The notes under the pieces: model-generated
What the model was told of the DNA's origin: nothing
The model's database searches: none
Seen by the model: only the letters and a program-made list of their open reading frames with translations
NCBI RefSeq assembly: GCF_008801835.1
Contig: NZ_VZOW01000002.1
Location: forward strand, 62,001 to 126,000
Length of the DNA stretch: 64,000 nt
Direction: 5' to 3'
Source of the DNA: Cupriavidus pauculus
Lineage (GTDB): Bacteria; Pseudomonadota; Gammaproteobacteria; Burkholderiales; Burkholderiaceae
Translations under genes and position numbers: made by a program
Shown here: positions 2,024-51,105 of the stretch, one piece after another
How positions within the stretch are numbered: position 1 is the stretch's first letter
Layout: each line of letters begins with the position of its first letter

Positions 2024-2662
2024 TTACATTGCTCCCATCAGGTAGACGACGGTGAACACACCGATCCAGACCACGTCCAAGAAGTGCCAGAACAGGCTGA
2101 GGCAGTTCAGGCGTTTGGCCACGGCCGGGGTCAGGCCCTTCTTCGACAGTTGCCACATCAGCACCAGCATCCACAGCATGCCGCTGGCCACGTGCAGACC
2201 GTGGGTGCCCACGAGCGTGAAGAACGACGACAGGAACGCGCTGCGGCTCGGGCCGGCGCCTTCGTGGATCAAGTGCGCGAACTCGTTGATTTCCATCGCC
2301 ATGAAGCCTGCGCCAAGCAGGAACGTCACGGCCAGCCAGAACATCACGCGGCCGCGCTGCTGGTTCTGCATCGACACCATGGCGAAGCCGTAGGTGATCG
2401 ACGACACCAGCAGGATGGCGGTTTCCACGAGCACATAGTTGAGCTCGAAGATCTCCTTGGCCGTCGGGCCGCCAGCCACTTCGCCGCGCAACACGGCGAA
2501 CGCGGCGAACAGGCACGCGAACAAGATACAGTCGCTCATCAGGTACAGCCAGAAACCAAAGATGGTGTTCTCGCTGGTGTCGTGATGCGCGTGGTCGTGC
2601 GCCTCGTCGTGCGAGTGCGCGGGGGCTTGCGCCCCAAAGCGGTCAAGAACTTCTGTCGACAT
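2024..2662 (-). CDS. cyoC: Cytochrome bo3 quinol oxidase subunit III (CyoC)
   Basis: Subunit III of the haem-copper quinol oxidase, 212 aa, five predicted membrane helices and no cofactor. The start at 2662 (MSTEVLDRF) is chosen because the cyoB stop lies 5 nt upstream and the length fits the family; the frame is open further upstream only over cyoB sequence. Residues 16-27 are rich in His and acidic residues, as in other CyoC N-termini. The segment [14 protein letters not shown] holds the conserved His pair of the COX3 family. Confidence 0.94.
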
Positions 2663-2667
2663 GGTGA

Positions 2668-4644
2668 TCAGCCCTGGGCAGCAATGCGCTGCTGATAGCG
2701 CGTTTCGATCTGCTCGACCTCGGAGGCCGGCACGTAGTAATCGATGTGGTCGTCGTTGGCGCGGCGGATGAACGCCACCACCATGCCGATCAGACCCACG
2801 GCGGCAAGCCACCAGATGTGCCAGACCAGCGCGAAACCGAGCGCCAGGCTCCAGGCGCCCATGTAGAAGCCGGCAGCCGTGTTCTTCGGCATGTGGATCT
2901 GCTCGAAGCTGTCGGTGCGGATGGTTTCGCCGCGGGCCTTCATGTCGGCGAACGCGTCCAGGTCACGCACCACCGGGGTGTGCGCGAAGTTGTAGAACGC
3001 GGGCGGCGACGACGTGGCCCACTCCAGCGTACGACCACCCCACGGATCGCCCGTGACGTCGGCCAGCTTCTTGCGGTCGCGGATCGACACAACAATCTGC
3101 AGCACCTGGAAGAAGATGCCCAGCGCAACGAACACCACGCCCACCACGGCCAGATGCAGCCACGGCGTCCATTCCGGATTGTTGGTGTGGTTCAGGCGAC
3201 GGGTCATGCCCATCAGGCCCAGCACGTACAGCGGCATGAAGGCGAAGTAGAAACCGACGATCCAGCACCAGAACGCGCACTTGCCCAGGCGCTCGTTCAG
3301 CTTGAAGCCGAACGCCTTGGGCCACCAGTACGTGACGCCGGCCAGGTAGCCGAACAGCACGCCGCCGATGATCACGTTGTGGAAGTGGGCGATCAGGAAC
3401 AGGCTGTTGTGCAGCACGAAGTCGGCTGCCGGCACGGCCATCAGCACGCCGGTCATGCCGCCGATCACGAACGTGATCATGAAGCCGAGCGTCCACAGCA
3501 CGGGCGAGGTGAACTGCACGCGGCCACGGTACATCGTGAACAGCCAGTTGAAGATCTTCACGCCCGTCGGGATCGAGATGATCATCGTCGTGATGCCGAA
3601 GAACGCATTCACGTTGGCGCCGGAGCCCATCGTGAAGAAGTGGTGCAGCCACACGATGAACGACAGCACCATGATCGCGCTCGTCGCGTACACCATCGAC
3701 TTGTAGCCGAACAGCTTCTTGCCCGAGAACGTGGCGATGATTTCCGAGAAGATGCCGAACGCCGGCAGCACCAGGATGTAGACCTCGGGGTGGCCCCAGA
3801 TCCAGATCAGGTTCACGTACATCATGGCGTTACCACCGCCTTCGTTCGTGAAGAAGTGCATGTCGAAGTAACGGTCCAGGCCAAGCAGCGCCAGCGACAC
3901 CGTCAGCACCGGGAAGGCCGCCACGATCAGCACGTTGGTGCACAGCGCGGTCCAGGTGAACACCGGCATGCGCATCAGCGTCATGCCCGGGGCGCGCATC
4001 TTCAGGATCGTCACCAGGAAGTTCACGCCGGTCAGCAACGTCCCCAACCCGGAAATCTGCAGCGCCCACAGGTAGTAGTCGACCCCCACGCCCGGGCTGT
4101 AGTCCAGACCCGACAGCGGCGGATACGCGAGCCAGCCGGTCCGCGCGAATTCGCCAACGCCCAGCGACACGTTCACCAGCATCGCGCTGGCCACGAACAG
4201 CCAGAAGCTCAACGTGTTCAGGAACGGGAAAGCCACGTCGCGCGCGCCGATCTGCAGCGGCACCACCAGGTTCATCAGACCCGTCATCAGCGGCATCGCC
4301 ACGAAGAAGATCATGATCACGCCGTGGGCCGTGAACACCTGGTCATAGTGTTCGGGCGGCAGGAAGCCGGTGGCGCCATTGGTGGCAACCGCCAGTTGGG
4401 TACGCATCATGACCGCGTCGGCAAAGCCGCGCAGCAGCATGATCAGCGCCACCAGCGAGTACATCACGCCGATGCGCTTGTGGTCGACCGAGGTAATCCA
4501 CTCGGTCCACAGGTAGCCCCACTTCTTGAAATACGAGATCGCACCGAGCAGTGCCAGCCCGCCAAGGGCGACGCAGGTCAGTGTGATCATGATGATCGGC
4601 TCATGAAACGGAATCGCCGACAAAGTCAATTTGCCAAACATCAT
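2668..4644 (-). CDS. cyoB: Cytochrome bo3 quinol oxidase subunit I (CyoB)
   Basis: Catalytic subunit, 658 aa, carrying low-spin haem b, high-spin haem o3 and CuB; it reduces oxygen to water and pumps protons. Visible signatures are GHPEVYI near residue 280 (the CuB ligand His and the cross-linked Tyr), the His pair in WLHHFFT near 330, and HFHNVIIGG near 415 with the axial haem ligands. About fifteen membrane helices are expected; the family length is about 660. The start at 4644 has GGAG a few bases upstream and lies 5 nt after the cyoA stop. The open frame beyond it runs over cyoA in another frame and is not coding. Confidence 0.96.
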
Positions 4645-4649
4645 TGCTC

Positions 4650-5618
4650 CTAGATTTGCGCGCCCACGGCCGGCTTGGCCGGCGTGGTCATGGATACACG
4701 CTCTTCGCCAAGCGTGTTGCGCGACGTGCAGACCGGACCGCCTTCGAAACCTTCGCGGGCCATGGCACGGCCGTCGTGCCCCATGTATTGATGCAGGATG
4801 CCGGTGAACAGGCCGTCTTCGACGCGGCCGAAGTACGTCACCGGATCTGCTTCGCTCGGCTTGGCCAGGACCTTGTAGTCCGCCGAAGCGAGCTGTTTGC
4901 TGGACGCGCGCACCTGCTCCACCCACTTGTCGAATTCGAAGTTCGACATCGCGATGGCCTTGAACTTCATGCCCGAGAAGCCGCCGCCGCTGTAGTTGGC
5001 GGACATGCCGTCGAACGTGCCGGCTTCATTGGCAATGAGGTGCAGCTTGGTTTCCATCCCGGCCATGGCGTAGACCTGGCTGCCCAGTTGCGGGATGAAG
5101 AACGAATTCATGATCGAATCCGACGTGATCTTGAAGTTGACCGGCGTACCCACCGGCAGCGCCAGCTGGTTGACCGTCGCGATCTTCAGTTCCGGATAGA
5201 TGAACAGCCACTTCCAGTTCATCGCCACCGCCTCGACCGTGACCGGCTTGACGTTCGACTCGATCGGCTTGTACGGATCGAGATCGTGCGACGACTTCCA
5301 CGTGATGATGCCCAGCGCGATGATGATCAGGCACGGGATCAGCCAGACCACCACTTCGATCTTGGTCGAGTGCGACCAGTCCGGATCATAAGTGGCCGAC
5401 TTGTTGCTGGCGCGATACTTCCACGCGAACACCACGGTCAGGATGATGACGGGCACCACCACCAGCAGCATCAGCCAGGTGGCAATCAGGATGATGCCCT
5501 TGATGTCCACGCCGACTTGCCCCTTCGGGTTCATCAGCGCGAAGTCGCAGCCGGCCAGCAGGAGCAGGCCAAGACAAGGCAGGAACCGCGTCAGGCGCGG
5601 CATTGTTGGTTTCTTCAT
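4650..5618 (-). CDS. cyoA: Cytochrome bo3 quinol oxidase subunit II (CyoA)
   Basis: Subunit II of the quinol oxidase, 322 aa. It has a lipoprotein signal with lipobox LLAGC (Cys at about residue 24), two membrane helices, then a periplasmic cupredoxin domain. The CuA-binding Cys pair of cytochrome c oxidases is absent, as expected for a quinol oxidase. The start at 5618 (MKKPTMPRL) lacks a clear ribosome site, so 5603 (MPRLTRFL) is an alternative; both keep the signal. It is first in cyoABCD. A cyoE (haem O synthase) gene is not present in the window. Confidence 0.94.
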
Positions 5619-6017
5619 GTCACGACGGTCTGGTTGCGCCACGCCTGTGCACAAGCGTGACACCGCCACCTGCTGCACGGGGCAACGGGCTGGCTGGGCT
5701 GGGGAAAACCGGGGACGTGTCCAAATGGCGCGTGCGGATGGGGCGATGCAAACGCCGGCGGACCATGCGGCCGGGCAACGCCATGAGCGCGGCTGGACAG
5801 ATACTGACGACTGCGTGCGCAAAACGCGGGGGGCGCCAAGCGTGCGCTGAGGTGACCGACTGCCTGAACTGCGATCGTTCCCGGTTCGGAGCAGCCACCG
5901 GGACAAGCGTTGTGTCACGATGCTCACGCGATTTCCGCCTGCTTTTGACCACCCCGCCAGCGCAGCGAGAACGGTCTCCGAGCGGATATCGCATTACATA
6001 AAACATCGTTGGGCGCG

Positions 6018-26466: not shown

Positions 26467-26638
26467 GGTACGGCCAGCCTTATCTGGAATGTTGTCAACA
26501 GCACCAGCTAGCGGCGTCCTGTTGCCCACCCCAGGCGCCATCCCGTCTTAGCTACGGCGCCGCCTTGCGGACTGCCGGTCAGTCATGCTGAGACCCATCT
26601 ATGACATGGGTGCGACATGACTTCCCGATCAAGTTGTT

Positions 26639-34549: not shown

Positions 34550-36091
34550 TCAGATCTGCGGGTTGATCTTCTGCACGGCCTTGTCGTGCAGCTTGTTTAG
34601 TGCGGCGAGGTAAGCCTTGGCCGAGGCGGCCACGATATCGGGATCGGTGCCCACGCCATTGACGATGCGGCCAGCCTTCGACAGACGCACGGTCACCTCA
34701 CCCTGCGCCTGAGTGCCTGCTGTAATGGCATTGACCGAATACAGCACCAATTCGGCGCCACTGCTTACGCGGCCCTCGATCGCATGCAGTGTTGCATCGA
34801 CCGGGCCATTGCCTTCGGCTTCGCCCGTTTGCTCGATGCCATCGACATTGAACACGATGCGCGCATGCGGGCGCTCACCAGTTTCGGAGCGCTGCGAGAG
34901 CGAAACAAAACGATAGTGTTCGTTGGCGTTTTCCTGCTCCTCGTCGGAGACGATCGCCATGATGTCTTCGTCGAAGATTTCCGCCTTCTGGTCCGCCAAT
35001 TCCTTGAAACGTGCGAATGCGGCGTTGATTTCCGCTTCGCTTTCGAGCTCGATGCCAAGCTCCTGCAGCCGTTGCTTGAAAGCATTGCGACCAGAAAGCT
35101 TGCCCAGCACGATCTTGTTGGCCGACCAGCCTACATCCTCGGCGCGCATGATTTCGTAGGTGTCGCGCGCCTTGAGCACGCCATCCTGGTGGATGCCCGA
35201 AGCATGCGCAAAAGCGTTCGCGCCTACCACCGCCTTGTTCGGCTGCACCACGAAGCCGGTGATCTGCGATACCAGCTTCGAAGCCGGGACGATTTGCGTG
35301 GTATCGATGCCAACGTCCATGTCGAAGTAGTCGCGACGCGTTTTCACGGCCATGACAACTTCTTCCAGGCTCGTATTGCCAGCACGCTCGCCCAGGCCGT
35401 TGATCGTGCATTCGATCTGACGGGCGCCGCCAAGCTTCACCGCGGCGAGCGAATTCGCCACAGCCATGCCGAGATCGTTATGGCAGTGCACGGACCACAC
35501 GGCCTTGTCGGAATTGGGAATGCGTTCGCGCACCGAGCGAATCAGTGCCGCATAGCCTTCCGGCACGGCATAGCCCACGGTATCGGGGAGATTGATGGTG
35601 GTCGCGCCTTCAGCGATCACACCTTCGAGCACCCGGCAAAGGAAGTCCATGTCCGAGCGGCTGCCGTCCTCAGGCGAAAACTCGATGTCGTCAGTGAACT
35701 GGCGCGCGAAACGCACGGCGAGACGCGCCTGCTCGTACACCTGATCCGGCGTCATGCGGAGCTTTTTCTCCATGTGCAACGCCGACGTCGCGATAAACGT
35801 GTGGATGCGGAACGAGTTGGCGGGCTTCAGCGCCTCGGCGGCGCGGGCAATATCCTTGTCGTTGGCGCGAGCCAGCGAGCAGATCGTGGAGTCTTTCACC
35901 ACCTGGGCGATCGAGCGGATCGCCTCGAAATCGCCGTTGGAGCTTGCCGCAAAGCCGGCTTCGATCACATCGACCTTCAGGCGCTCCAGTTGACGCGCAA
36001 TGCGGATCTTTTCCTCGCGGGTCATGGAGGCGCCCGGCGATTGTTCGCCGTCACGCAAGGTGGTATCGAAAATGATCAGTTTGTCAGACAT
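34550..36091 (-). CDS. leuA: 2-Isopropylmalate synthase
   Basis: First committed enzyme of leucine synthesis: condenses acetyl-CoA with 2-oxoisovalerate, 513 aa. The N-terminal TIM barrel has [12 protein letters not shown] (metal Asp near residue 9) and the metal-binding [13 protein letters not shown] near 203; the C-terminal domain (about 390-513) is the leucine-feedback LeuA dimer domain. Length matches the family. It is preceded by a leader peptide and attenuator, so expression should fall when leucine is plentiful. Confidence 0.96.
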
Positions 36092-42224: not shown

Positions 42225-42600
42225 TTCAGTCCTTTGCAATTTTCGGCAAAAAATTGTTTGGATGCTCTCTGCCGGGCTTGTGGCTCGGGTTCAAGCGGTG
42301 CGCGTCTGCATGAGAAGACCGCCTCATAAGCGGTCCGATGAGACAACCACTGATGTCGTGAACCGACGATGATACTGCAACGCACCAGCGCGGTAAATGA
42401 ACTTTTTGCTTTGGCGCCCCACCGCGGCGCGCTGACACGACACATTTGCCGTTCCGGCTCTTCGCCCCATGTCTGCAATTGAATACAGCAGTGGCCCAAG
42501 TCACCTATTTTTTGCTAGCATCGCAGACACTTCCCGAACGCCGCAGGCCTTACGCGGCACATTCGGCCCGGCTTTGCGCCCAACCGCTGTTTCTGCCTGC
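42225..42600. other. Divergent control region between ilvI and the sigma-factor gene
   Basis: About 376 bp with no convincing gene. The minus strand holds the ilvI promoter and leader. The plus-strand half is comparatively A+T-rich around 42505-42520 and probably drives the sigma factor, but I cannot pick a confident promoter there. Confidence 0.5.
42317..42397 (-). promoter_or_regulatory. ilvI promoter and structured leader
   Basis: On the minus strand TTTACC (42392-42397) and TATCAT (42369-42374) are 17 bp apart, with a start near 42362 and a leader of about 140 nt. Early in the leader is the hairpin GACCGC-TTATGAG-GCGGTC (42317-42335). A GTG-initiated mini-frame of 8 codons (42324-42350: M-V-V-S-S-D-R-L) ends inside it. 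Attenuation is possible but the T-run after the hairpin is poor. Confidence 0.4.
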
Positions 42601-43167
42601 ATGGCCACCGACAAGGAACTCTCCGACTTTCTCGCCAGTGTCGAGCGCCGCGCCTTCAAACAGGCGGTTTTCGCCGTTCGTGACGACGAGGCCGCACTCG
42701 ACATCGTGCAGGACGCCATGATCAAGCTGGCGGAAAAGTACGGCGACAAGAGCGCCGCCGAGTTGCCGCCGCTGTTCCAGCGCATTCTGCAGAACACGAT
42801 CCACGACTGGTTCCGACGCCAGAAGGTCCGCAACACCTGGGTCACGCTGTTTTCGAACCTGCGCGACGAACGCGACGGCGACGACAATGACCTGCTCGAC
42901 ACGCTGGAGGCGCAGGCCGGGTCGCAATCGGCCGAAAGCAGCGCCGACAAGGTCGAGCGGTCCCAGGTGATGAACATCATCGAGCAGGAAATTCAACGTC
43001 TGCCGACACGTCAACGCGAGGCTTTCCTGATGCGTTACTGGGAGGATATGGACGTGGCCGAAACCGCAGCGGTGATGGGTTGCTCGGAAGGCAGCGTCAA
43101 GACGCACTGTTCCCGTGCAACGCACACTCTGGCACAGGCCTTGCGCGCGCGGGGAGTCCGACTATGA
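42601..43167 (+). CDS. RNA polymerase sigma factor, ECF-like
   Basis: Sigma-70 family factor of the two-domain (ECF) type, 188 aa. Sigma region 2 lies at about 18-85 (DEAALDIVQDAMIKLAEKYG, then DWFRRQKVRNTW) and region 4 at about 130-185 (LPTRQREAFLMRYWEDMDVAETAAVMGCSEGSVKTH), with a helix-turn-helix. A charged linker of about 45 residues joins them. The start at 42601 gives the conserved MATDKELSDFLA; no clear ribosome site precedes it. Its stop overlaps the next ATG (ATGA), tying it to the DUF3619 membrane protein. Confidence 0.92.
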   Translation: MATDKELSDFLASVERRAFKQAVFAVRDDEAALDIVQDAMIKLAEKYGDKSAAELPPLFQRILQNTIHDWFRRQKVRNTWVTLFSNLRDERDGDDNDLLDTLEAQAGSQSAESSADKVERSQVMNIIEQEIQRLPTRQREAFLMRYWEDMDVAETAAVMGCSEGSVKTHCSRATHTLAQALRARGVRL

Positions 43168-43610
43168 GCAGAAACGAACGAGATATCCAGGAACGGCGCA
43201 TCGCCCACGAGATCCGCTTGGCACTTGATGCCTCGGCGGAGGCGGTGCCGCAAGACATTGCCGCGCGCCTGGCGGCGGCGCGGCGCATGGCCTTGGCCGC
43301 CAAGAAGGCCGAGGCGCGCGCGCACGTGCCGCAGCTCGCGCTGCCGGGCGTCTCGCACAGCCTGTCCTTCGACGACGACGACGACGATTCGCCGCTGCAC
43401 CGGGCCGGTGCATGGATGCGCAAGCTGGCGCTGGTGTGGACGCTGGTGGCGCTGGGCGCCGGCCTGCTGGGCATCTACCACTGGCAGCAGCAGCAGCGCG
43501 TCGAGGAACTGGCCGACGTCGATGCGGCGATGCTGCTCGACGATCTGCCGCCGACTGCCTACGCCGATCAGGGCTTCCACGTTTTCCTGAAACGCGATCG
43601 CGATCAATAA
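43164..43610 (+). CDS. DUF3619 single-pass membrane protein, possible anti-sigma factor
   Basis: Uncharacterised beta-proteobacterial family, 148 aa. The N-terminal 80 residues are charged and helical (RNERDIQERRIAHEIRLALD) and likely cytoplasmic; an Asp run (six Asp near 70-75) precedes one membrane helix at about 87-105; a short C-terminal periplasmic tail follows. Translational overlap with a sigma factor plus this topology is what an anti-sigma factor would look like, so I propose that role; no known anti-sigma motif is visible. Confidence 0.75.
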   Translation: MSRNERDIQERRIAHEIRLALDASAEAVPQDIAARLAAARRMALAAKKAEARAHVPQLALPGVSHSLSFDDDDDDSPLHRAGAWMRKLALVWTLVALGAGLLGIYHWQQQQRVEELADVDAAMLLDDLPPTAYADQGFHVFLKRDRDQ

Positions 43611-43611
43611 G

Positions 43612-44385
43612 ATGGCACGCGCACCTTCCCGTACCGACGCCTTCCGTCGCCGGCTCGCCAGTCTTTGCGCAGCCGGGCTGACGGTCGCTGCACTGGGCGC
43701 CGATGTTGTGATCAGTGTGGCCCAAGCGCAGGGCAATGCCGCCAGCCAGCCCGCAGCGCGTCCGGTGCTCAATGCGCATCCGACATGGTCCGAGCTGTCG
43801 ACCACGCATCAACAGGTGCTCGCGCCGCTGCGGCCGCTCTGGGACACCATCCCCGAACTCAATCGACGCAAGTGGCAGCGCATTGCGGATCTGTATCCGA
43901 AACTGAAGCCCGAGGAACAGAAGCGCCTGCAGGAACGCATGGCCGACTGGGTCAAGATGACACCCCAGCAGCGCCGTCTGGCCCGCGAGAACTATCAGAT
44001 CACGCGCACGCTGCCGCCCGAGAAGAAGGCCGAGGCATGGGATCGATACCAGCAGTTGCCTGAAGAGCAGAAGAAGAAGCTGGCCGCGGCGGAAAAAGTG
44101 CCGCGACGCCCCGGAGCCGTCAGCGCCTTGCCGTCCGGCAAGCGCCCGCCGGCCGACACCGCCCGGCAAATTCGTCGACCGGAAACGAAATCGGCCAGCG
44201 AGCCGGAGGCGATTTCCGCATCGGCACCGGTCGTGCAGACCGTCAGTGGCGCGGCCGCTGCCAGCCCTGCGCCCGTCGCTGCGCCCCCCGCCGCCCCGGC
44301 TCCTGCGCCGACACCGGCGCTGTCGCCGCCGGTCAACGGCGAGGCCGCGACCGATTTCAACCAGACCGATTCCCAGCGTCAGTAA
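43612..44385 (+). CDS. DUF3106 exported protein
   Basis: Secreted protein of unknown function, 257 aa. A basic N-terminus and a hydrophobic stretch (about 18-38) form a signal peptide or anchor. The central part (about 55-150) is helical with repeated motifs LPxEKKxxxWxRYQQLPEEQ and MTPQQRRLARENYQ, reminiscent of Spy/CpxP-like periplasmic helical proteins. The C-terminal 100 residues are Pro/Ala-rich and disordered. It starts one base after the DUF3619 stop, so it belongs to the sigma-factor operon and could sense or buffer envelope stress; that role is inferred. Confidence 0.78.
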   Translation: MARAPSRTDAFRRRLASLCAAGLTVAALGADVVISVAQAQGNAASQPAARPVLNAHPTWSELSTTHQQVLAPLRPLWDTIPELNRRKWQRIADLYPKLKPEEQKRLQERMADWVKMTPQQRRLARENYQITRTLPPEKKAEAWDRYQQLPEEQKKKLAAAEKVPRRPGAVSALPSGKRPPADTARQIRRPETKSASEPEAISASAPVVQTVSGAAAASPAPVAAPPAAPAPAPTPALSPPVNGEAATDFNQTDSQRQ

Positions 44386-44488
44386 GCGCCCGGTGTTTCG
44401 CGGCGTCGCACCGGTGACGTCGGCGCCGAAAGCATCCACCCACATCGGCGCACCCTCCGAAGCGGCCATCCTGCCGTCGCCGCTTTGG

Positions 44489-44494
44489 CATAAT
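44489..44494 (+). promoter_or_regulatory. Extended -10 promoter of the RDD gene
   Basis: CATAAT (five of six) preceded by TGG, an extended -10 arrangement, placing a transcript start near 44501, about 20 nt before the RDD ATG. No good -35 is visible. Confidence 0.45.
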
Positions 44495-44521
44495 GGCCGC
44501 TTCACCTGACCGCCTTGCGCC

Positions 44522-45061
44522 ATGCCCGCCGCGACTCCTGCCGCCGACTCCCGATCCACCACAATGCCGCTGCGCACGCCACCGCTGCGCCGTCGGCTGC
44601 TATGCATGCTCTACGAAGGCGTCCTGCTGTTTGGCGTGCTGATGGCGGCCAGTGCGGTCTATGTCGCGGTCCGGCCGCTGCTGCAGCGCGCGGGAATCGA
44701 CCGTCCCTATATCGACCAGGCGTGGATGTTCATCGTGATGGGCTTCTATTTCGCCTGGTTCTGGCAGCGAAACGGCCAGACGCTGGCCATGCAGACCTGG
44801 CGCATCCGTCTGGAGAATGCGCACGGCAGGCCGCCGCGTTGGTCGCAGGCGGTTTTACGCTTCGTGCTGGCGTGGCTGTGGTTGCCACCGGCAGCCGCGG
44901 TGGGCCATGCGCTGGGACTGACCAAGGGACCGTTCATCGGTGCCCTGGCCGCCGGATTGGCGATCTGGATTTCGCTGGCCTGGCTGGACCCGCGACGGCA
45001 GTTTCTCCATGATCGCCTGGCCGGTACCCGCCTGACGGATCTGCGCCAGCCGCAGCCATGA
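44522..45061 (+). CDS. RDD family membrane protein
   Basis: Integral membrane protein of the RDD family, 179 aa, named for conserved Arg and Asp residues. Visible are an Arg near the start of helix 1 (LRRRLLCMLYEGVLLFGVL), the segment QTLAMQTWRIRLEN after helix 2, and the terminal RRQFLHDRLAGTRL with the Asp. Three to four helices. Some relatives are Na+/H+ antiporters, but most have no proven function. Its stop codon overlaps the next gene's ATG. Confidence 0.87.
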   Translation: MPAATPAADSRSTTMPLRTPPLRRRLLCMLYEGVLLFGVLMAASAVYVAVRPLLQRAGIDRPYIDQAWMFIVMGFYFAWFWQRNGQTLAMQTWRIRLENAHGRPPRWSQAVLRFVLAWLWLPPAAAVGHALGLTKGPFIGALAAGLAIWISLAWLDPRRQFLHDRLAGTRLTDLRQPQP

Positions 45062-46101
45062 ACCTCACGGCCGCCGCGCTGCGCCGGGCCGCCGTGTTGG
45101 TGCAGGCTGCGAGCGCATGCGCGGTGGCCGCCTGCCTGAGCAGCGTGACAGGTTGGCCGTGGCCGCTGGCGCTGGGCGGCGGCATCGTGGTGGTTCTGCT
45201 GATTTTCGGCGCCAGCGTAGCGCTCGCGTTCGCCGTCACGCTCGGCGGCTTCGGCATCCCCATGGCGCAGCGCCCGCCCGCCGACATGCGAGCCGACGGC
45301 CCGGCCCCAATGCAGCCCCACATGCCGGGCGATATCGCGCGCCGGTCATCGCTTGATCTGCGATCCGCGGTGGTGTGCTTTCTCGCCGAATACCGCGCGG
45401 TTTTTCGCATGTTCAATTGGCTGCAGCCTTTCCACTCGCGACTTTCGTTCGCCCCGCCGACGCACCCGTTGCCCGATGCGCCGCCGGTGCTGCTGGTGCA
45501 TGGCTACGGCTGCAACCATGCGATCTGGCTCGACATGGCGCCCGCACTGGCCGAGGCCGGTTACTGCTGCGAAGGTATCGACCTGACGCCGGTGCTCGGC
45601 AATATCGACCAGTACGCAGTGCAGTTGCAGCAACGCATGCGCGCGATCAAGGCGCGCAGCGGCCGCGCTCCGCTGCTGGTCTGCCACAGCATGGGCGGGC
45701 TGGCCGCGCGCGCCGCGCAGGTGCTGGCCGCCCGTTCGGGCGATCTCGACGCCTGCGCAGGCATCGTCACGCTGGGCAGCCCACACCACGGCTGCGCGCT
45801 GGCGCGCTTCGGCAGCGGTCACAACGCGCGGCAAATGCGCTGGCAGAGCCCCTGGCTGGTGGCGCTGGCAGCCGCCGAAACACCGGCGATGCGCTCGCGC
45901 ATCGTGTCGGTCTTCAGTTGGCACGATTCCATTGCCGGCCCGCCCGGCACCTCCTGGCTCGACGGCGCCCACCATCTCGCGCTGGATGGCATCGGCCATG
46001 TGTCCCTGCTGCGCCACCGCCGCGCGATCGATGCAACGTTGGCCGCGCTGACGATATTGCGTCGCGAAGCGGCGCTGCGCGACGCAGTGGCGCCGCCCTG
46101 A
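45058..46101 (+). CDS. Membrane-anchored alpha/beta-hydrolase (lipase-like)
   Basis: Probable serine esterase or lipase, 347 aa. Two hydrophobic segments (about 8-30 and 40-65) anchor it, and the hydrolase domain starts near residue 140. The oxyanion-hole loop is LLVHGYGCNHAIW and the nucleophile elbow CHSMGGLAARAA (Ser211), with GSPHHG as in triacylglycerol lipases; the catalytic His is probably in LDGIGHVSLL near 318. A 4-nt overlap with the RDD gene means coupled translation. The substrate is unknown. Confidence 0.85.
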   Translation: MNLTAAALRRAAVLVQAASACAVAACLSSVTGWPWPLALGGGIVVVLLIFGASVALAFAVTLGGFGIPMAQRPPADMRADGPAPMQPHMPGDIARRSSLDLRSAVVCFLAEYRAVFRMFNWLQPFHSRLSFAPPTHPLPDAPPVLLVHGYGCNHAIWLDMAPALAEAGYCCEGIDLTPVLGNIDQYAVQLQQRMRAIKARSGRAPLLVCHSMGGLAARAAQVLAARSGDLDACAGIVTLGSPHHGCALARFGSGHNARQMRWQSPWLVALAAAETPAMRSRIVSVFSWHDSIAGPPGTSWLDGAHHLALDGIGHVSLLRHRRAIDATLAALTILRREAALRDAVAPP

Positions 46102-46117
46102 TTCACCGGGAGTTCAG

Positions 46118-46157
46118 CATTCATGTGACATTCATGTTTCCGTCACGGCTTCGTCAT
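46118..46157 (+). promoter_or_regulatory. Tandem Pho-box-like half-sites upstream of plcP
   Basis: Four 7-mers at exact 11-bp spacing start at 46118, 46129, 46140 and 46151: CATTCAT, CATTCAT, CCGTCAC, TCGTCAT. This is the PhoB half-site period (CTGTCAT-N4 repeated); each unit has about five of seven consensus bases. Two full Pho boxes in tandem would be formed. I cannot identify a strong -10 after them. Confidence 0.6.
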
Positions 46158-46200
46158 GACGCGCTGGCCCAATGCTGCCATCGCCGATACCGGGGCCGTC

Positions 46201-47187
46201 ATGGTTCAAGCCATCCGATCTGCTCGCATAAGTTTGACCAGGGTTACGCAACGTCTGCGTGGAAGGCCCGACCCAACGCTCTCGATGTCCGCGGCACTGG
46301 CCGCATTCATGCCGCCCCCGACGGAAAGGTCCGCCGCGCCTCCATCGCTGCGCGAGCCCGCCGACCCCGCCACGCTCCCTGCCTCGCCTGAACCGCCCAC
46401 GCACCGCTATCGCGCCATCTGGCTGTCCGACATCCATCTCGGCACGCCCGGTTGCCAGGCCACGTATCTGCTCGACTTTCTCAAGCACAACGAATCCGAC
46501 GTGCTTTATCTGGTTGGCGACATCATCGATGGCTGGCAACTGCGCCGTGGCTGGTACTGGCCGCAAAGCCACAACGACGTGGTGCAGAAACTGCTGCGCA
46601 AGGCGCGCAAGGGCACCGAGGTGATCTACGTGCCCGGCAATCACGACGAGGCGGCGCGCCAGTTCGATGGCATGGCGTTCGGCGACATCACCGTGCGTGA
46701 GGACGCGGTCCATGTCACCGCCACGGGCAAGCGGCTCTGGGTGGTGCACGGCGACCTGTTCGACGGCGTGGTGCAGCACGCCAAATGGTTGGCCTACCTC
46801 GGCGACTCGCTGTACACGATGATCCTGGCCGTGAACCGGCATTTCAATCGCGTGCGGGCGCGGCTTGGATTCGACTACTGGTCGCTGTCGCAATACCTGA
46901 AGCATCAGGTCAAGAACGCCGTCAGCTACATCAACTCGTTCGAGCACGCGATGGTGGACGAAGCGCGCCGCCGCGGCTGCGACGGCGTGGTCTGCGGCCA
47001 CATCCACAAGGCCGAAATCCGCGACGTGAACGGACAGCTCTACTGCAACGACGGCGACTGGGTGGAAAGCCTGTCCGCCCTGGTCGAGACCATGGAAGGC
47101 GAACTGAAGATCGTCTACTGGACCACGCTGCTCGATCCGCCCGCTCCCGCCGGCCGCCGCCGTCGCGCCGCCAACGTCGCCGCCTGA
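46201..47187 (+). CDS. PlcP-type phospholipase C (metallophosphoesterase)
   Basis: Calcineurin-like metallophosphoesterase of the LpxH superfamily, 328 aa. Metal-binding motifs are complete: SDIHLG (Asp77, His79), GDIIDGW (Asp107), GNHDE (146-150), VVHGDLFDG and GHIHKAE. The overall pattern, including YWPQSHNDVVQKLLRKARKG and AYLGDSLYT, matches PlcP-type phospholipases that release diacylglycerol from phospholipids in phosphate-starved bacteria. LpxH itself is shorter. The in-frame ATG at 46156 falls inside the fourth Pho-like half-site, so I start at 46201 (GGGG 6 nt upstream). Residues 1-65 are Pro/Ala-rich and variable. Confidence 0.85.
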   Translation: MVQAIRSARISLTRVTQRLRGRPDPTLSMSAALAAFMPPPTERSAAPPSLREPADPATLPASPEPPTHRYRAIWLSDIHLGTPGCQATYLLDFLKHNESDVLYLVGDIIDGWQLRRGWYWPQSHNDVVQKLLRKARKGTEVIYVPGNHDEAARQFDGMAFGDITVREDAVHVTATGKRLWVVHGDLFDGVVQHAKWLAYLGDSLYTMILAVNRHFNRVRARLGFDYWSLSQYLKHQVKNAVSYINSFEHAMVDEARRRGCDGVVCGHIHKAEIRDVNGQLYCNDGDWVESLSALVETMEGELKIVYWTTLLDPPAPAGRRRRAANVAA

Positions 47188-47278
47188 CCGCCATTCCCAC
47201 CCCGCATCGCGCGCCCGCCATGCAGGCGCGCGATGCGGCGCCTCACCACATACGGCACAGCCGCCGCAAGGAGTTCCG

Positions 47279-48397
47279 ATGAGAGTCCTGATCGTCACCG
47301 ACGCGTGGGAACCGCAGGTCAATGGCGTAGTGCGCACGCTGAAATCCACGCGCCGAGAGCTCGAAGCCATGGGCCACGAAGTAAATCTGCTCACCCCGCT
47401 GGAATTCCGCACGATCCCCTGCCCCACCTATCCCGAGATCCGCCTGTCGATCCTGCCTTCGGCAAAGGTTCGTCGGCGCATCGACGCGTTCCAGCCCGAT
47501 GCCTTGCATATTGCTACGGAGGGTCCGCTCGGGCTGGCCGCGCGCGCTTATGCGCTGCGTCACAAGCTGCCTTTCACCACGGCCTATCACACGCGCTTTC
47601 CGGAATATGTACAGGCGCGCTTCGGCATTCCGCTGGCCTGGACCTATCGATTCTTGCGCTGGTTTCATGGCGCGGCGCGCGCGGTCATGGCGCCGACCCC
47701 GGTGGTACTGGACGACCTGCAGCGCTTTGGCATTACCAACGGCGTACTGTGGACGCGCGGCGTTGACCTGGACGTGTTCACGGCGCAGCGAGCGAACGTT
47801 TTAAACACCGCGCATCCGATCTTCCTGTACGTGGGACGTGTGGCGGTGGAAAAGAACGTCGAGGCGTTTCTCCAGCTCGATCTGCCCGGATCGAAATGGG
47901 TGGTGGGCGATGGCCCGGCGCTGGCGGCGCTGAAGGCCCGTTACCCATCTGCCAACTATCTCGGCGTGCTGAAGCAACCGGAATTGGCCAGGGTGTATGC
48001 TTCCGCAGATGTCTTCGTGTTTCCAAGCCGGACTGACACCTTCGGGCTGGTATTGCTGGAAGCGCTGGCCAGCGGCCTGCCTGTGGCGGCATACCCGGTA
48101 ACGGGGCCGATCGATGTGCTGGGTGACAGTCCGGCCGGCGTCATGCATGAGGACCTGAGAGAGGCATGTCTGGAGGCGTTGCGCATCGACCGCGCGACGG
48201 CACGCGCCCACGCGGAGAAGTTTTCGTGGCGCGCGGCCTCCGAGCAGTTCCTCAAACATCTGCGTCCGCTGTCGGCGACAGTGGGCGGATCCGACAATCC
48301 GGCATCTCCCGTCGCACCCGATCATGGCCAAGCCCCATCCCACGCTACCGCCCGATCCGTCGCTGCACCGGCCGACCACCACGCAGGTGGCCGCTGA
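47279..48397 (+). CDS. Family-4 glycosyltransferase, probable diacylglycerol glycosyltransferase
   Basis: GT-B fold glycosyltransferase (GT4/GT1 superfamily), 372 aa. The N-terminus MRVLIVTDAWEPQVNGVVRT has the acceptor-side Gly loop, and the C-terminal donor domain has LYVGRVAVEKNV and the E-x7-E-like region DTFGLVLLEALASG. It resembles the Agt-type lipid glycosyltransferase found next to plcP in other bacteria, which glycosylates diacylglycerol. It starts 91 nt after plcP. The last 35 residues are Ala/Pro/His-rich, unlike the family, and overlap dgkA in another frame. Confidence 0.83.
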   Translation: MRVLIVTDAWEPQVNGVVRTLKSTRRELEAMGHEVNLLTPLEFRTIPCPTYPEIRLSILPSAKVRRRIDAFQPDALHIATEGPLGLAARAYALRHKLPFTTAYHTRFPEYVQARFGIPLAWTYRFLRWFHGAARAVMAPTPVVLDDLQRFGITNGVLWTRGVDLDVFTAQRANVLNTAHPIFLYVGRVAVEKNVEAFLQLDLPGSKWVVGDGPALAALKARYPSANYLGVLKQPELARVYASADVFVFPSRTDTFGLVLLEALASGLPVAAYPVTGPIDVLGDSPAGVMHEDLREACLEALRIDRATARAHAEKFSWRAASEQFLKHLRPLSATVGGSDNPASPVAPDHGQAPSHATARSVAAPADHHAGGR

Positions 48398-48821
48398 AGT
48401 GGAATCGGAATATTCGATCGCCAACAATCCCCACAAAGGCAACCGCGGCCTGACGCGGGCATGGCATGCCGCCATCAACTCGATGTCGGGCCTGCGCTAT
48501 GCCGTGCTGGAAGAAAGCGCTTTCCGGCAGGAACTGACGCTGGTGATCATCCTCACGCCGTGCGCATTCATCCTGCCGGTGTCGGTGGTCGAGCGCGTGT
48601 TGCTGCTGGGCACGCTGCTGCTGGTCCTGATCGTGGAGCTGCTCAATTCGAGTGTCGAAGCGGCCATCGACCGGATCTCGCTGGAACGCCACAGCCTGTC
48701 GAAGCGTGCGAAGGATTTTGGCAGTGCGGCGGTCATGCTGGCGCTGATCCTGTGCGGCGGCACATGGATCGCCATCGGCGGACCGCACGTGGTGCGCTGG
48801 ATCGGGATGCTGGCGAGCTAG
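48324..48821 (+). CDS. dgkA: Diacylglycerol kinase
   Basis: Small integral-membrane kinase converting diacylglycerol to phosphatidic acid, 165 aa against about 122 in E. coli because of a 40-residue polar N-terminal extension. The core signatures EESAFRQE, IVELLNSSVEAAIDRIS with the catalytic Glu, and LSKRAKDFGSAAV are all present, with three helices. The only upstream ATG (48324) overlaps the glycosyltransferase end by 74 nt; a later GTG is possible. It would recycle diacylglycerol freed by the neighbouring phospholipase. Confidence 0.92.
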   Translation: MAKPHPTLPPDPSLHRPTTTQVAAEVESEYSIANNPHKGNRGLTRAWHAAINSMSGLRYAVLEESAFRQELTLVIILTPCAFILPVSVVERVLLLGTLLLVLIVELLNSSVEAAIDRISLERHSLSKRAKDFGSAAVMLALILCGGTWIAIGGPHVVRWIGMLAS

Positions 48822-48826
48822 CCCGC

Positions 48827-48867
48827 AAAACAAACACCCCAAGCGCTGGCGTGCAGCCTTGGGGTGT
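48827..48867 (-). terminator. Terminator of the LOG gene
   Basis: The stem ACACCCCAAG/CTTGGGGTGT (48834-48843 with 48858-48867) with an inner GCTG/CAGC is followed on the minus strand by TTTGTTTTGC. It lies between the convergent dgkA and LOG genes and may work in both directions, although the plus side is weak in T. Confidence 0.8.
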
Positions 48868-48938
48868 GTTCTGGTCTGGCGACGGCTCCGCAGCGCAACG
48901 GCGTGAAACCGTCCCGCCGGTCGTGGGTCTTCGGCGAT

Positions 48939-49523
48939 TCAGGTCTTTTCGCGCGCCGCCTGCCACTTGTCGACGCGCACGCGCGGCGCGGCCGCCAGTT
49001 TGCCGAGCAAACCCGACGGCGAACTCGAAACATGCAGCATATCGGCATGGACCTGCTTCAGGAAACCTTCGCTGACGGCATGGCTCAGGAAAGCCAGCAT
49101 GCCGTCGTAGAAGCCGGCCACGTTGAGCAATCCGACAGGCTTGTCGTGATAGCCGAGCTGCGCCCAGGTGAAAGTCTCGAACAGTTCCTCGAAGGTGCCC
49201 ACCCCACCGGGCATGGCGATGAATGCATCGGCGCGGTCGGCCATCATCTGCTTGCGCTCATGCATATTGCGCACCACGTGCAGTTCGGTCAGGCCGCGAT
49301 GTCCCACCTCCTTCTGCATCAACGCATCGGGAATGATGCCGATGGCCATGCCGCCGTGGGCCAGAACGCTGTCCGCCACGATGCCCATCAGGCCGACCTT
49401 GCCGCCGCCATAGACCAGCGCGAGGCCCTGTTCCGCCATGGTCTTGCCGAGCACCTTGGCCACCTCGGCATACTCGGGCCGAACACCGGGGCTCGACCCG
49501 CAATACACGCAAACCGCTTTCAT
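48939..49523 (-). CDS. LOG family phosphoribohydrolase (TIGR00730)
   Basis: Rossmann-fold protein of the LOG/YvdD family, 194 aa, which cleaves nucleoside 5'-monophosphates, in plants and some bacteria releasing cytokinins. The signature PGGVGTFEELFE (near residue 103) is the phosphate-binding and catalytic region; the N-terminus VCVYCGSSPG is also conserved. Its ATG overlaps the TetR stop by 4 nt. The true bacterial substrate (AMP or cytokinin ribotides) cannot be told. Confidence 0.92.
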   Translation of the reverse strand: MKAVCVYCGSSPGVRPEYAEVAKVLGKTMAEQGLALVYGGGKVGLMGIVADSVLAHGGMAIGIIPDALMQKEVGHRGLTELHVVRNMHERKQMMADRADAFIAMPGGVGTFEELFETFTWAQLGYHDKPVGLLNVAGFYDGMLAFLSHAVSEGFLKQVHADMLHVSSSPSGLLGKLAAAPRVRVDKWQAAREKT

Positions 49524-50230
49524 CTCTTGTCCTTTTCGGCCCTGGCGGCCTCGGCTTCGGCCTTTTGCGTCGCATATTCGCGCGCGAGCTGGTCGAATGC
49601 CTCGCGTGCCTTGCCGCGCAGATACGGCGCCAGGATCGAGAAAATGTGATAGCTCGACCCATGCAGATAACCGCGGATCTGCTCGGGATCGTTATATTGC
49701 CGCGGATGTTGCACGAACTGGAACGACAGCCAGTAGGTGGCAATCACCACGATGTTGGTGCAGACGGCGTCGACCTGCTCCGGCGTGGCTTCCATGTCGC
49801 CGTCTTCCTGGAACTGCCGGCAGATTTCCAGCGCAAAGCGCTTCTTCTGTTCGACGATGCGCTTGAAGTTGGTTTCGAGCATCCGGTTGCGCGCCAACAG
49901 ATCGTTGATGTCGCGATAAAGGAAGCGGTAGTTCCAAAGAAACTCCGACATGTACTGCAGATAGCCCCAGCTTTCTCCCAGCGTGGCCTTATGGTCCTCC
50001 GGCATCTTGAGCCGGCGCTCCATTTCCTGCTCGAAGCGCACGAAGATGGAGTTGATGATGTCGTCCTTGTTGCGGAAGTGGTAGTACAGATTGCCAGGGC
50101 TGATCTCCATGGCTTCCGCAATCGTCGTGGTCGTGACATTGGGCTCGCCAAGTTCGTTGAACAGACGTAGCGAAACATCCAGGATGCGGTCTCTGGTGCG
50201 GCGCGGACCGGCTTGCGGTTTGGCTTCCAT
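49520..50230 (-). CDS. TetR family transcriptional regulator
   Basis: DNA-binding regulator, 236 aa. The helix-turn-helix covers about 15-60 (RTRDRILDVSLRLFNELGEPN, shown in part; then IAEAMEISPGNLYYHFRNKDD). The C-terminal ligand domain has the block RFLYRDINDLLARN, a pattern also seen in a beta/gamma-proteobacterial TetR subgroup of unknown ligand. The charged tail (QKAEAEAARAEKDKR) is helical. It is co-translated with the LOG gene and may control it or the divergent secreted-protein gene. Confidence 0.9.
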   Translation of the reverse strand: MEAKPQAGPRRTRDRILDVSLRLFNELGEPNVTTTTIAEAMEISPGNLYYHFRNKDDIINSIFVRFEQEMERRLKMPEDHKATLGESWGYLQYMSEFLWNYRFLYRDINDLLARNRMLETNFKRIVEQKKRFALEICRQFQEDGDMEATPEQVDAVCTNIVVIATYWLSFQFVQHPRQYNDPEQIRGYLHGSSYHIFSILAPYLRGKAREAFDQLAREYATQKAEAEAARAEKDKR

Positions 50231-50391
50231 GGGTATCGGACGGACTTTGTATCTGCAGGATTCGGATTATAAGCACAGTGGGCGGGCCGGCCGACGGCAT
50301 GTGACGTGTGCGCTGCGGACCTTCCAAGCATTCTACGATTCAGACAATTCAGCCAAGACACCACAATCGAGTGTTCGTGAAGCACACTTGC

Positions 50392-51105
50392 ATGCTCGTC
50401 TTCCCTTCCACGCTGGAGCCACTCTTGAAGCGTCTTCCGTTTTCTCTTGTCCTTGGTGCGCTCGTCACCGCGTCCGTTTTAGCGATGCAAAGCGCGCCAG
50501 CCGCCACCACGTCGGATTTTCGCTTGCGCGCCGATATGCTGCCCGCGTCCTGCGACCTGACGATCTCGAACAACGGCATCGTCGACTTCGGCGTCATCAT
50601 GGCGGCCAGCCTCAGCGATACCGGCTTCACCCGGGTCGGCAAGCGGGACATCACCCTGAATATCACCTGCGATGCCGCGGCCAAGGTAGCGATTTCCGCC
50701 TCGGACGGGCGACCGGGGACCATTCCCGCCGGCATCGGCAAGTTCCTGTATGCGAATCAGGATGACGCCTCGGTGTTCGGCGCAGGCAATGTCGACGGCC
50801 ACAATATCGGCGGCTATCTCGTATATCACAACGCCGATGGCACCGCGGACGGGGTGCCAGCCTACGTGATCAGTTCGGAGGACAACGGCATCTCGTGGGT
50901 GGAGTCGCATGGCAGAACCAATTCGATCACGCCGACGCGGATCCACGGCTGGTCAAGAACCGTTGGCGGCACGCCGGACAGCTTTACGGTGACCTCGCAG
51001 CCCTACGTGGTGGAACTGGCGCTCAATCGCAAACAGGACCTGCCCGCGCTAACGGGTCAGATTCCGATCGACGGGCTGGTGACGTTCACCATCCAGTACC
51101 TCTGA
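50392..51105 (+). CDS. DUF1120 secreted protein, fimbria-associated type
   Basis: Exported protein of about 237 aa resembling the DUF1120 family, members of which sit in pilus operons of beta-proteobacteria. A signal peptide (about 1-38) ends near SAPAA. The mature part opens with SCDLTISNNGIVDFGVIMAAS, a typical Cys-containing beta-strand motif paired with a second Cys (NITCDAAAKVAI). The start at 50392 is uncertain; a GTG at 50371 is possible. No chaperone or usher gene lies nearby, so it is isolated. Its stop abuts the convergent DUF924 stop. Confidence 0.72.
   Translation: MLVFPSTLEPLLKRLPFSLVLGALVTASVLAMQSAPAATTSDFRLRADMLPASCDLTISNNGIVDFGVIMAASLSDTGFTRVGKRDITLNITCDAAAKVAISASDGRPGTIPAGIGKFLYANQDDASVFGAGNVDGHNIGGYLVYHNADGTADGVPAYVISSEDNGISWVESHGRTNSITPTRIHGWSRTVGGTPDSFTVTSQPYVVELALNRKQDLPALTGQIPIDGLVTFTIQYL

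Follow-up and report, generated by a model that had tools for sequence, protein, structure and literature searches.

A likely Pho-regulon PlcP-Agt lipid-remodelling operon with an attached diacylglycerol kinase gene in Cupriavidus pauculus

The subject of this report is a group of three consecutive plus-strand genes, plcP, agt and dgkA, in a 64,000-nucleotide stretch of Cupriavidus pauculus DNA (contig NZ_VZOW01000002.1, positions 62,001 to 126,000, or G000:C2:62001-126000; hereafter the window, whose coordinates are used throughout). They code for a calcineurin-like metallophosphoesterase of the phospholipase C type (PlcP, 46201-47187), a GT4 diacylglycerol glycosyltransferase assigned by homology to the Agt1 type (47279-48397) and, also by homology, an integral-membrane diacylglycerol kinase (DgkA, 48324-48821). 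An earlier note made from the letters of this DNA had placed the three genes one after the other, and so we found them, behind a predicted array of PhoB-type half-sites (46118-46157). We consider it likely that they constitute a Pho-regulon operon for lipid remodelling to which DgkA has been attached. This reading is based on the identities of the genes, the similarity to a Pseudomonas aeruginosa pair, the compact gene order, the conserved Pho-box array and the single DgkA of the 6.4-Mb genome. The system is mostly a known one, in a clade for which our literature search found no description; its new element is the presence of DgkA in the unit.

PlcP is 54% identical over 236 amino acids to P. 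aeruginosa PlcP (pair of locus L106), and the D-x-H, GD, GNHD, HGD and GHIH residues, which we take to be metal-binding, are common to all 15 aligned PlcP sequences. The open frame extends from 46156 to 47187. Its first ATG falls within the fourth half-site of the array and is present in only 11 of 30 relatives, against 29 of 30 for the ATG at 46201, so that the start was corrected to the latter. No clear third-position excess of change is seen in 46156-46200, and a modest one appears after 46201. The gene thus most likely starts at 46201 and would specify 328 residues. The N-terminus exceeds that of P. aeruginosa PlcP by about 55 residues. A membrane-binding amphipathic helix was considered there and rejected, as shuffled sequences reach the helical moment in 4-21% of cases for five sequences (13% for that of the window).

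The glycosyltransferase displays 53% identity over 326 amino acids to P. aeruginosa Agt1, and a genome-wide search with Agt1 at 1e-10 returned this protein as its one match. In a tree of 53 rows (midpoint root, for drawing only), both fall into a group of 34 with a support of 99/99, together with a Sphingomonas plcP neighbour and 31 of the 33 rows labelled plcP-linked, one of these being the Agt1 copy. The assignment as a diacylglycerol-glycosyltransferase-like enzyme, already made from the sequence, is therefore well founded. Outside the group are the glycosyltransferases of L100 and L101, where PlcP is more distant, those encoded behind a leading dgkA and the plcP-adjacent ones of L197 and L202; distant PlcPs consequently pair with other glycosyltransferases.

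On the P. aeruginosa record NZ_CP137508.1, a gene for a family-1 glycosyltransferase comes next after plcP, and an adenylate/guanylate cyclase gene, presumably PA3217, lies on the other strand. From this gene order, the neighbouring cyclase and the statement, in the accessible part of the published study, that a glycosyltransferase gene lies immediately downstream of PA3219 (PMC8528852), we take the segment to be PA3219-PA3218, an assignment made by layout and not by accession. According to the same part of that study, P. aeruginosa at low phosphate loses the lipid MGDG when either agt1 or plcP is missing, while the lipid GADG disappears in the absence of agt2 and declines in that of plcP. As in the window, plcP directly precedes a GT4 gene and a Pho box is reported upstream; unlike in the window, no dgkA stands alongside in NZ_CP137508.1. 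P. aeruginosa further differs by its second enzyme, Agt2, which was not itself used as a query here, whereas the Agt1 query gave a single match.

The earlier note had also announced four PhoB-type half-sites with an exact spacing of 11 base pairs, and had proposed a weight-matrix scan. We ran such a scan with a matrix built on 82 half-sites, selected by their TGTCA-like motif in the pstS promoters of 21 genus loci, with no plcP sequence included. The half-sites do exist, at 46118, 46129, 46140 and 46151, each with five of the seven bases of CTGTCAT, and the array at 46118 ranks first among 127,922 four-site positions on both strands (score 6.2, the next being 4.5) and third among 127,944 as three sites; plain consensus matching also places it first in the window as four sites. 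Across 30 genus sequences (L002, a duplicate of L001, being omitted from the alignments), half-sites 1 to 4 reach five of seven bases in 9, 30, 23 and 28 rows in fixed alignment columns, or in 8, 30, 24 and 28 when each row is set in the register that gives it the highest sum. Half-sites 2 to 4 are thus well conserved and the first is the doubtful one. The lowest half-site sum observed is reached by 0.3% of 600 shuffled sequences. Conservation means per ten bases are 0.75-0.96 over 46117-46156, against 0.37-0.66 over 46047-46116, and remain at 0.86-0.97 in the stretch 46167-46200 up to the plcP start, which would contain a probable -10 region and a short leader. The genome encodes PhoB and PstS, both above their family cut-offs.

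This arrangement is also found outside the genus. We examined 40 order-level regions upstream of plcP, chosen mainly for an adjacent glycosyltransferase gene, of which 38 were retained (in L103 and L104 the motif gave no PlcP anchor). Three half-sites at a spacing of 11 beat shuffled sequences (p<=0.05) in 27 of the 38 loci. At spacings of 8, 9, 10, 12, 13 and 14 the numbers fall to 5, 3, 2, 2, 3 and 7, and at 22, a multiple of 11, 16 loci pass. Forty permuted consensus words gave a mean of 4.6 loci, the highest values (22, 18, 15, 15 and 12) coming, where listed, mostly from shifted versions of the motif. With two half-sites, 21 loci pass at spacing 11, 19 at 22, 13 at 13 and 2-5 at the others; the enrichment at 13 is an observation for which a plain 11-base-pair PhoB repeat does not account. 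Among the best 80 named loci, 77 have usable upstream DNA (L135, L179 and L187 do not) and 40 of these pass the three-site test. These sequence comparisons support a Pho-box array upstream of plcP that is more than chance. Elsewhere in the window, the strongest two-site score (11407, minus strand) was discarded, since it sits in the apparent start of a coding stretch; other high-scoring pairs lie at 26618 (minus) and at 36081 and 35341 (plus), one of them beside a tRNA-Leu gene.

The three genes are tightly packed. The 3′ end of agt overlaps dgkA by 74 base pairs; the agt tail past about 48270, where the conserved part ends, is unconserved, and wobble in the overlap follows the dgkA frame. The plcP-agt gap is 5 base pairs in the Polynucleobacter loci L133 and L141 and 5-13 in three f42 loci, and the f38 locus displays a 4-base-pair overlap. 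A candidate start codon of dgkA precedes the agt stop by 4 base pairs in Burkholderia L113 and L121, and Paraburkholderia L117 and L126 have a wider gap ahead of the dgkA core. Such packing and overlap support a shared message, from which the three proteins would be co-expressed. Within the plcP-agt gap of the window, a perfect 12-base-pair inverted repeat was read from the sequence (47204-47236, arms 47204-47215 and 47225-47236). Fold energies for 40 loci, calculated with no shuffle control, predict a strong fold of this gap in some genus members and a weak one in others; the repeat may set the PlcP/Agt ratio or may be a chance element.

The third gene had been called a diacylglycerol kinase, and its product is indeed a full-length DAGK_prokar protein (PF01219, 108.2 bits for a cut-off of 22.3) that aligns with the solved DgkA 3ze4_A (phmmer, 1.6e-25), the kinase activity itself being assigned by homology. 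No second DgkA match occurs in the genome, and DAGK_cat (PF00781) gave no match there at 0.001; DgkA is therefore its only recognisable diacylglycerol kinase. This status is not genus-wide, as a search of 21 other genus genomes gave 16 with PF00781 above the family cut-off (13 partial matches of 27-33 bits and three strong ones of 82-87 bits). Exactly one DgkA match at 1e-6 is present in 35 of 36 genus genomes, and in all 35 genus genomes that possess plcP this single gene follows the PlcP match on the same strand, at a distance of 1.07-1.21 kb. The addition of dgkA to plcP-agt in a beta-proteobacterium, to which the earlier note had drawn attention, is thereby confirmed and looks like the only new element.

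The plcP gene is found in the window's genome and in 34 of the 35 other genus genomes, the exception (G012) being 54% complete, and all 29 other genus loci examined hold matches to the lipase-like gene upstream, plcP, the glycosyltransferase gene and dgkA. In one of the loci (L026, G024:C9), the glycosyltransferase reading is split between two frames, with plcP and dgkA both uninterrupted, which could reflect disruption of the gene or a mistake in the sequence. In an order-level sample of 200 genomes, the window's own included, PlcP is matched at 1e-15 in 93, with at least 59% identity in 64; an adjacent same-strand glycosyltransferase match accompanies it in 43 of these 64 and in 47 genomes overall. 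Named relatives were surveyed through the best 80 of at least 588 PlcP matches. The closest by PlcP, among the matches listed, are Cupriavidus (81% and 80%). A same-strand glycosyltransferase match is present in 54 of the 80 loci (distant in L165 and L189, 33-34%), and all three genes in 26: 2 Cupriavidus, 1 Ralstonia, 7 Burkholderia, 8 Paraburkholderia, 2 Caballeronia, 2 Polynucleobacter, 3 loosely named bacteria and 1 labelled SAR116. This last contig (L176), attributed to a SAR116 alphaproteobacterium, carries plcP-glycosyltransferase-dgkA with 57-66% identity to the unit of the window, and is likely a binning error or a transfer.

How dgkA came to stand beside plcP-agt was approached with DgkA trees. 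A first tree, without L003, L210, L211, L217 and L218, where the motif identified no DgkA, suggested more than one origin, and repeated independent recruitment was abandoned after an approximately unbiased (AU) test did not reject a single clade (p 0.195 for Burkholderiaceae with f42, 0.441 when f23 is added to these; L081, L099, L142, L143, L173, L176, L206, L219, L220, L222, L223 and L225 were left aside).

In other Burkholderiales, DgkA also adjoins a GT4 glycosyltransferase, but with dgkA first and a glycosyltransferase of another group. This order occurs in at least 12 genomes (L190-L201; G070, G115, G195, G198, G068, G097, G113, G146, G224, G080, G081 and G180), all lacking plcP within 3 kb on the strand; in G146 one lies about 3 kb away. 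A diacylglycerol kinase thus sits with such a glycosyltransferase in these genomes too. A PAP2-family gene stands behind the pair in the three loci scanned (L194, L196 and L198), and these look like clusters for a diacylglycerol/phosphatidate cycle. In L197, L202 and L203, plcP and a dgkA-glycosyltransferase pair are a few kb apart; L202 (G102, 2074-5666) has plcP, glycosyltransferase, dgkA and glycosyltransferase genes in a row, combining both arrangements.

Pairs of a phospholipase C and a diacylglycerol glycosyltransferase at low phosphate are described, in the accessible parts of the reports, for Methylosinus trichosporium OB3b (PMC9239053) and for marine heterotrophs such as roseobacters and SAR11 (PMC4796936). 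They resemble the pair of the window, the M. trichosporium one by description only, and belong to other classes or families. PMC4796936 does not contain the term 'diacylglycerol kinase', and 'dgka' is absent from PMC9239053 as far as its index entry goes. That the pair is known from phosphate-limited alpha- and marine proteobacteria, as proposed at the outset, is correct, but this range is too narrow since Pseudomonas has it too. Among the papers listed, judged largely by their entries and the openings of abstracts, we found none describing plcP-agt-dgkA in Burkholderiaceae, a weak negative given that subscription literature lay largely outside the search. A parallel for the kinase is Pseudomonas putida BIRD-1, in which a phospholipase C and a diacylglycerol kinase are both up under phosphate depletion. 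The accessible part of that report (PMC5082522) gives their co-induction and does not state gene adjacency, and we compare the DagK family by name only. The joint rise of PlcP and DagK is called PHO-dependent in the authors' discussion, while PlcP, and not DagK, is named among the proteins missing from the phoBR mutant, again as far as the accessible part goes (PMC5082522).

We propose the following scheme, in which phosphate control, a change of lipids and a branch point at DgkA are all predictions. Under phosphate limitation, PhoB would bind the half-site array and transcription would start just upstream of ATG 46201. PlcP would cleave phospholipids into diacylglycerol and a phosphorylated head group, a source of recoverable phosphate, and Agt would add a sugar to diacylglycerol, most likely glucose from UDP-glucose, yielding a phosphate-free membrane lipid. 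For these two steps we rely on the published P. aeruginosa knock-outs (PMC8528852) and on a similar pathway in M. trichosporium (PMC9239053), as given in the accessible parts of both. DgkA, translated from the same message, would turn unglycosylated diacylglycerol back into phosphatidate, avoiding diacylglycerol build-up and letting phospholipid synthesis resume; by our analysis this is the weakest step. It is possible, though we hold it only tentatively, that in Burkholderiaceae the DgkA of the cell, which in the window's genome is the only recognisable diacylglycerol kinase, has in this way been placed under phosphate control inside a remodelling operon, creating a Pho-set fork between glycolipid and phosphatidate for diacylglycerol of whatever source. 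A kinase induced at phosphate scarcity could then act as a safety valve or in head-group exchange (for example, from phosphatidylethanolamine to phosphatidylglycerol) without new glycerol-lipid synthesis.

Several points weigh against the operon as we propose it. Re-phosphorylation by DgkA spends ATP phosphate, contrary to the purpose of the other two enzymes, and the function of the operon is here predicted from sequence. Among genomes with a close PlcP, 21 of 64 lack an adjacent glycosyltransferase match, and by the criteria used the full triple is present in at least 11 of the 200 order-level genomes, weak dgkA neighbours being possibly undercounted. Moreover, 11 of the 38 order-level and 37 of the 77 named loci, including Ralstonia L112, have no significant three-site array, and the first half-site is poorly conserved in the genus itself. 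A coincidental match, or a site for some other regulator, is nevertheless quite improbable for the array: it is only twelfth among 127,966 positions as a half-site pair with the pstS matrix, and two sites at spacing 13 are also met in 13 of the 38 loci, yet it comes first as four sites, is kept in the genus and belongs to a clear three-site enrichment at 11 base pairs. A more substantial objection, which we judge somewhat unlikely while giving it real weight on account of the ATP phosphate spent, is that plcP-agt is the remodelling pair and dgkA a housekeeping kinase that recycles the diacylglycerol released by envelope sugar-phosphate transfers, placed there by descent and expressed via read-through or its own promoter. 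As the sole DgkA match of the genome, it would have to cover any housekeeping need; dgkA is present in at least 11 of the 47 order-level genomes with adjacent plcP and glycosyltransferase genes, and a single origin of the linkage was not rejected by the AU test. On the other hand, the linkage is kept in every plcP-bearing genome of the genus and is present in six named genera, the frames overlap or nearly touch at several loci, and PlcP and a DagK increase jointly in phosphate-depleted P. putida (PMC5082522, accessible part).

The enzymes themselves could also be read otherwise. Most annotated plasmid relatives of the first gene bear the label of the lipid A enzyme UDP-2,3-diacylglucosamine diphosphatase (LpxH), a function that we regard as extremely improbable here, for the genome has a separate LpxH gene on another contig (250 bits, above the cut-off), while PlcP obtains 31.7 bits against the curated LpxH model (cut-off 190.35) and 37.6 against PRK05340 (cut-off 134), a marginal similarity compared with its identity to PlcP. 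The proposed phospholipase is accordingly distinct from the LpxH of this genome. For the glycosyltransferase, another acceptor such as phosphatidylglycerol, or a sugar other than glucose, is unlikely, with a chance larger than that of an LpxH function. Among NCBIfam models, the protein comes closest to N-acetylglucosaminyl phosphatidylglycerol synthase (85 bits, well under the cut-off of 480), followed by monoglucosyldiacylglycerol synthase (66 bits, cut-off 400), and the sequence does not reveal the sugar. Diacylglycerol is favoured by the identity to Agt1, whose deletion abolishes MGDG (PMC8528852, accessible part), and by the adjoining PlcP, which would supply this substrate.

The limits of the proposed operon were drawn from its surroundings. 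On the 5′ side lie genes for an RDD protein and for a lipase-like alpha/beta-hydrolase (45058-46101). The earlier note had put an anchored lipase-like gene before the unit, and it is a neighbour throughout the genus; as a member of the unit it was rejected, being matched only in L110, L111 and L112 (Cupriavidus and Ralstonia) among the best 80 named loci, some of which include little upstream DNA, and the Pho-box array sits 3′ of it. On the 3′ side, genes for a LOG-family protein and a TetR regulator are convergent with dgkA. A 10-base-pair inverted repeat between the convergent genes (48834-48867), read from the sequence, is a candidate end of the unit and was not listed by a terminator scan. 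A simple promoter scan found no plus-strand site in 45900-49000; as it gave none before plcP either, this negative is weak. No Rfam family reached its gathering score in 44000-50500. Further upstream (42469-44385), consecutive genes for a sigma-70-type factor, a DUF3619 and a DUF3106 protein look like a unit made up of a sigma factor and its associated proteins.

If our reading is correct, the replacement of phospholipids by glycolipids documented for marine, methanotrophic and Pseudomonas species would extend to Burkholderiaceae at large, taking in Cupriavidus, grown under nutrient limitation in biotechnology, and the soil and plant relatives of Burkholderia. It would also pose a puzzle, that of a phosphate-spending kinase retained in a phosphate-saving operon, for which the single DgkA copy in the genus would suit a clean test.

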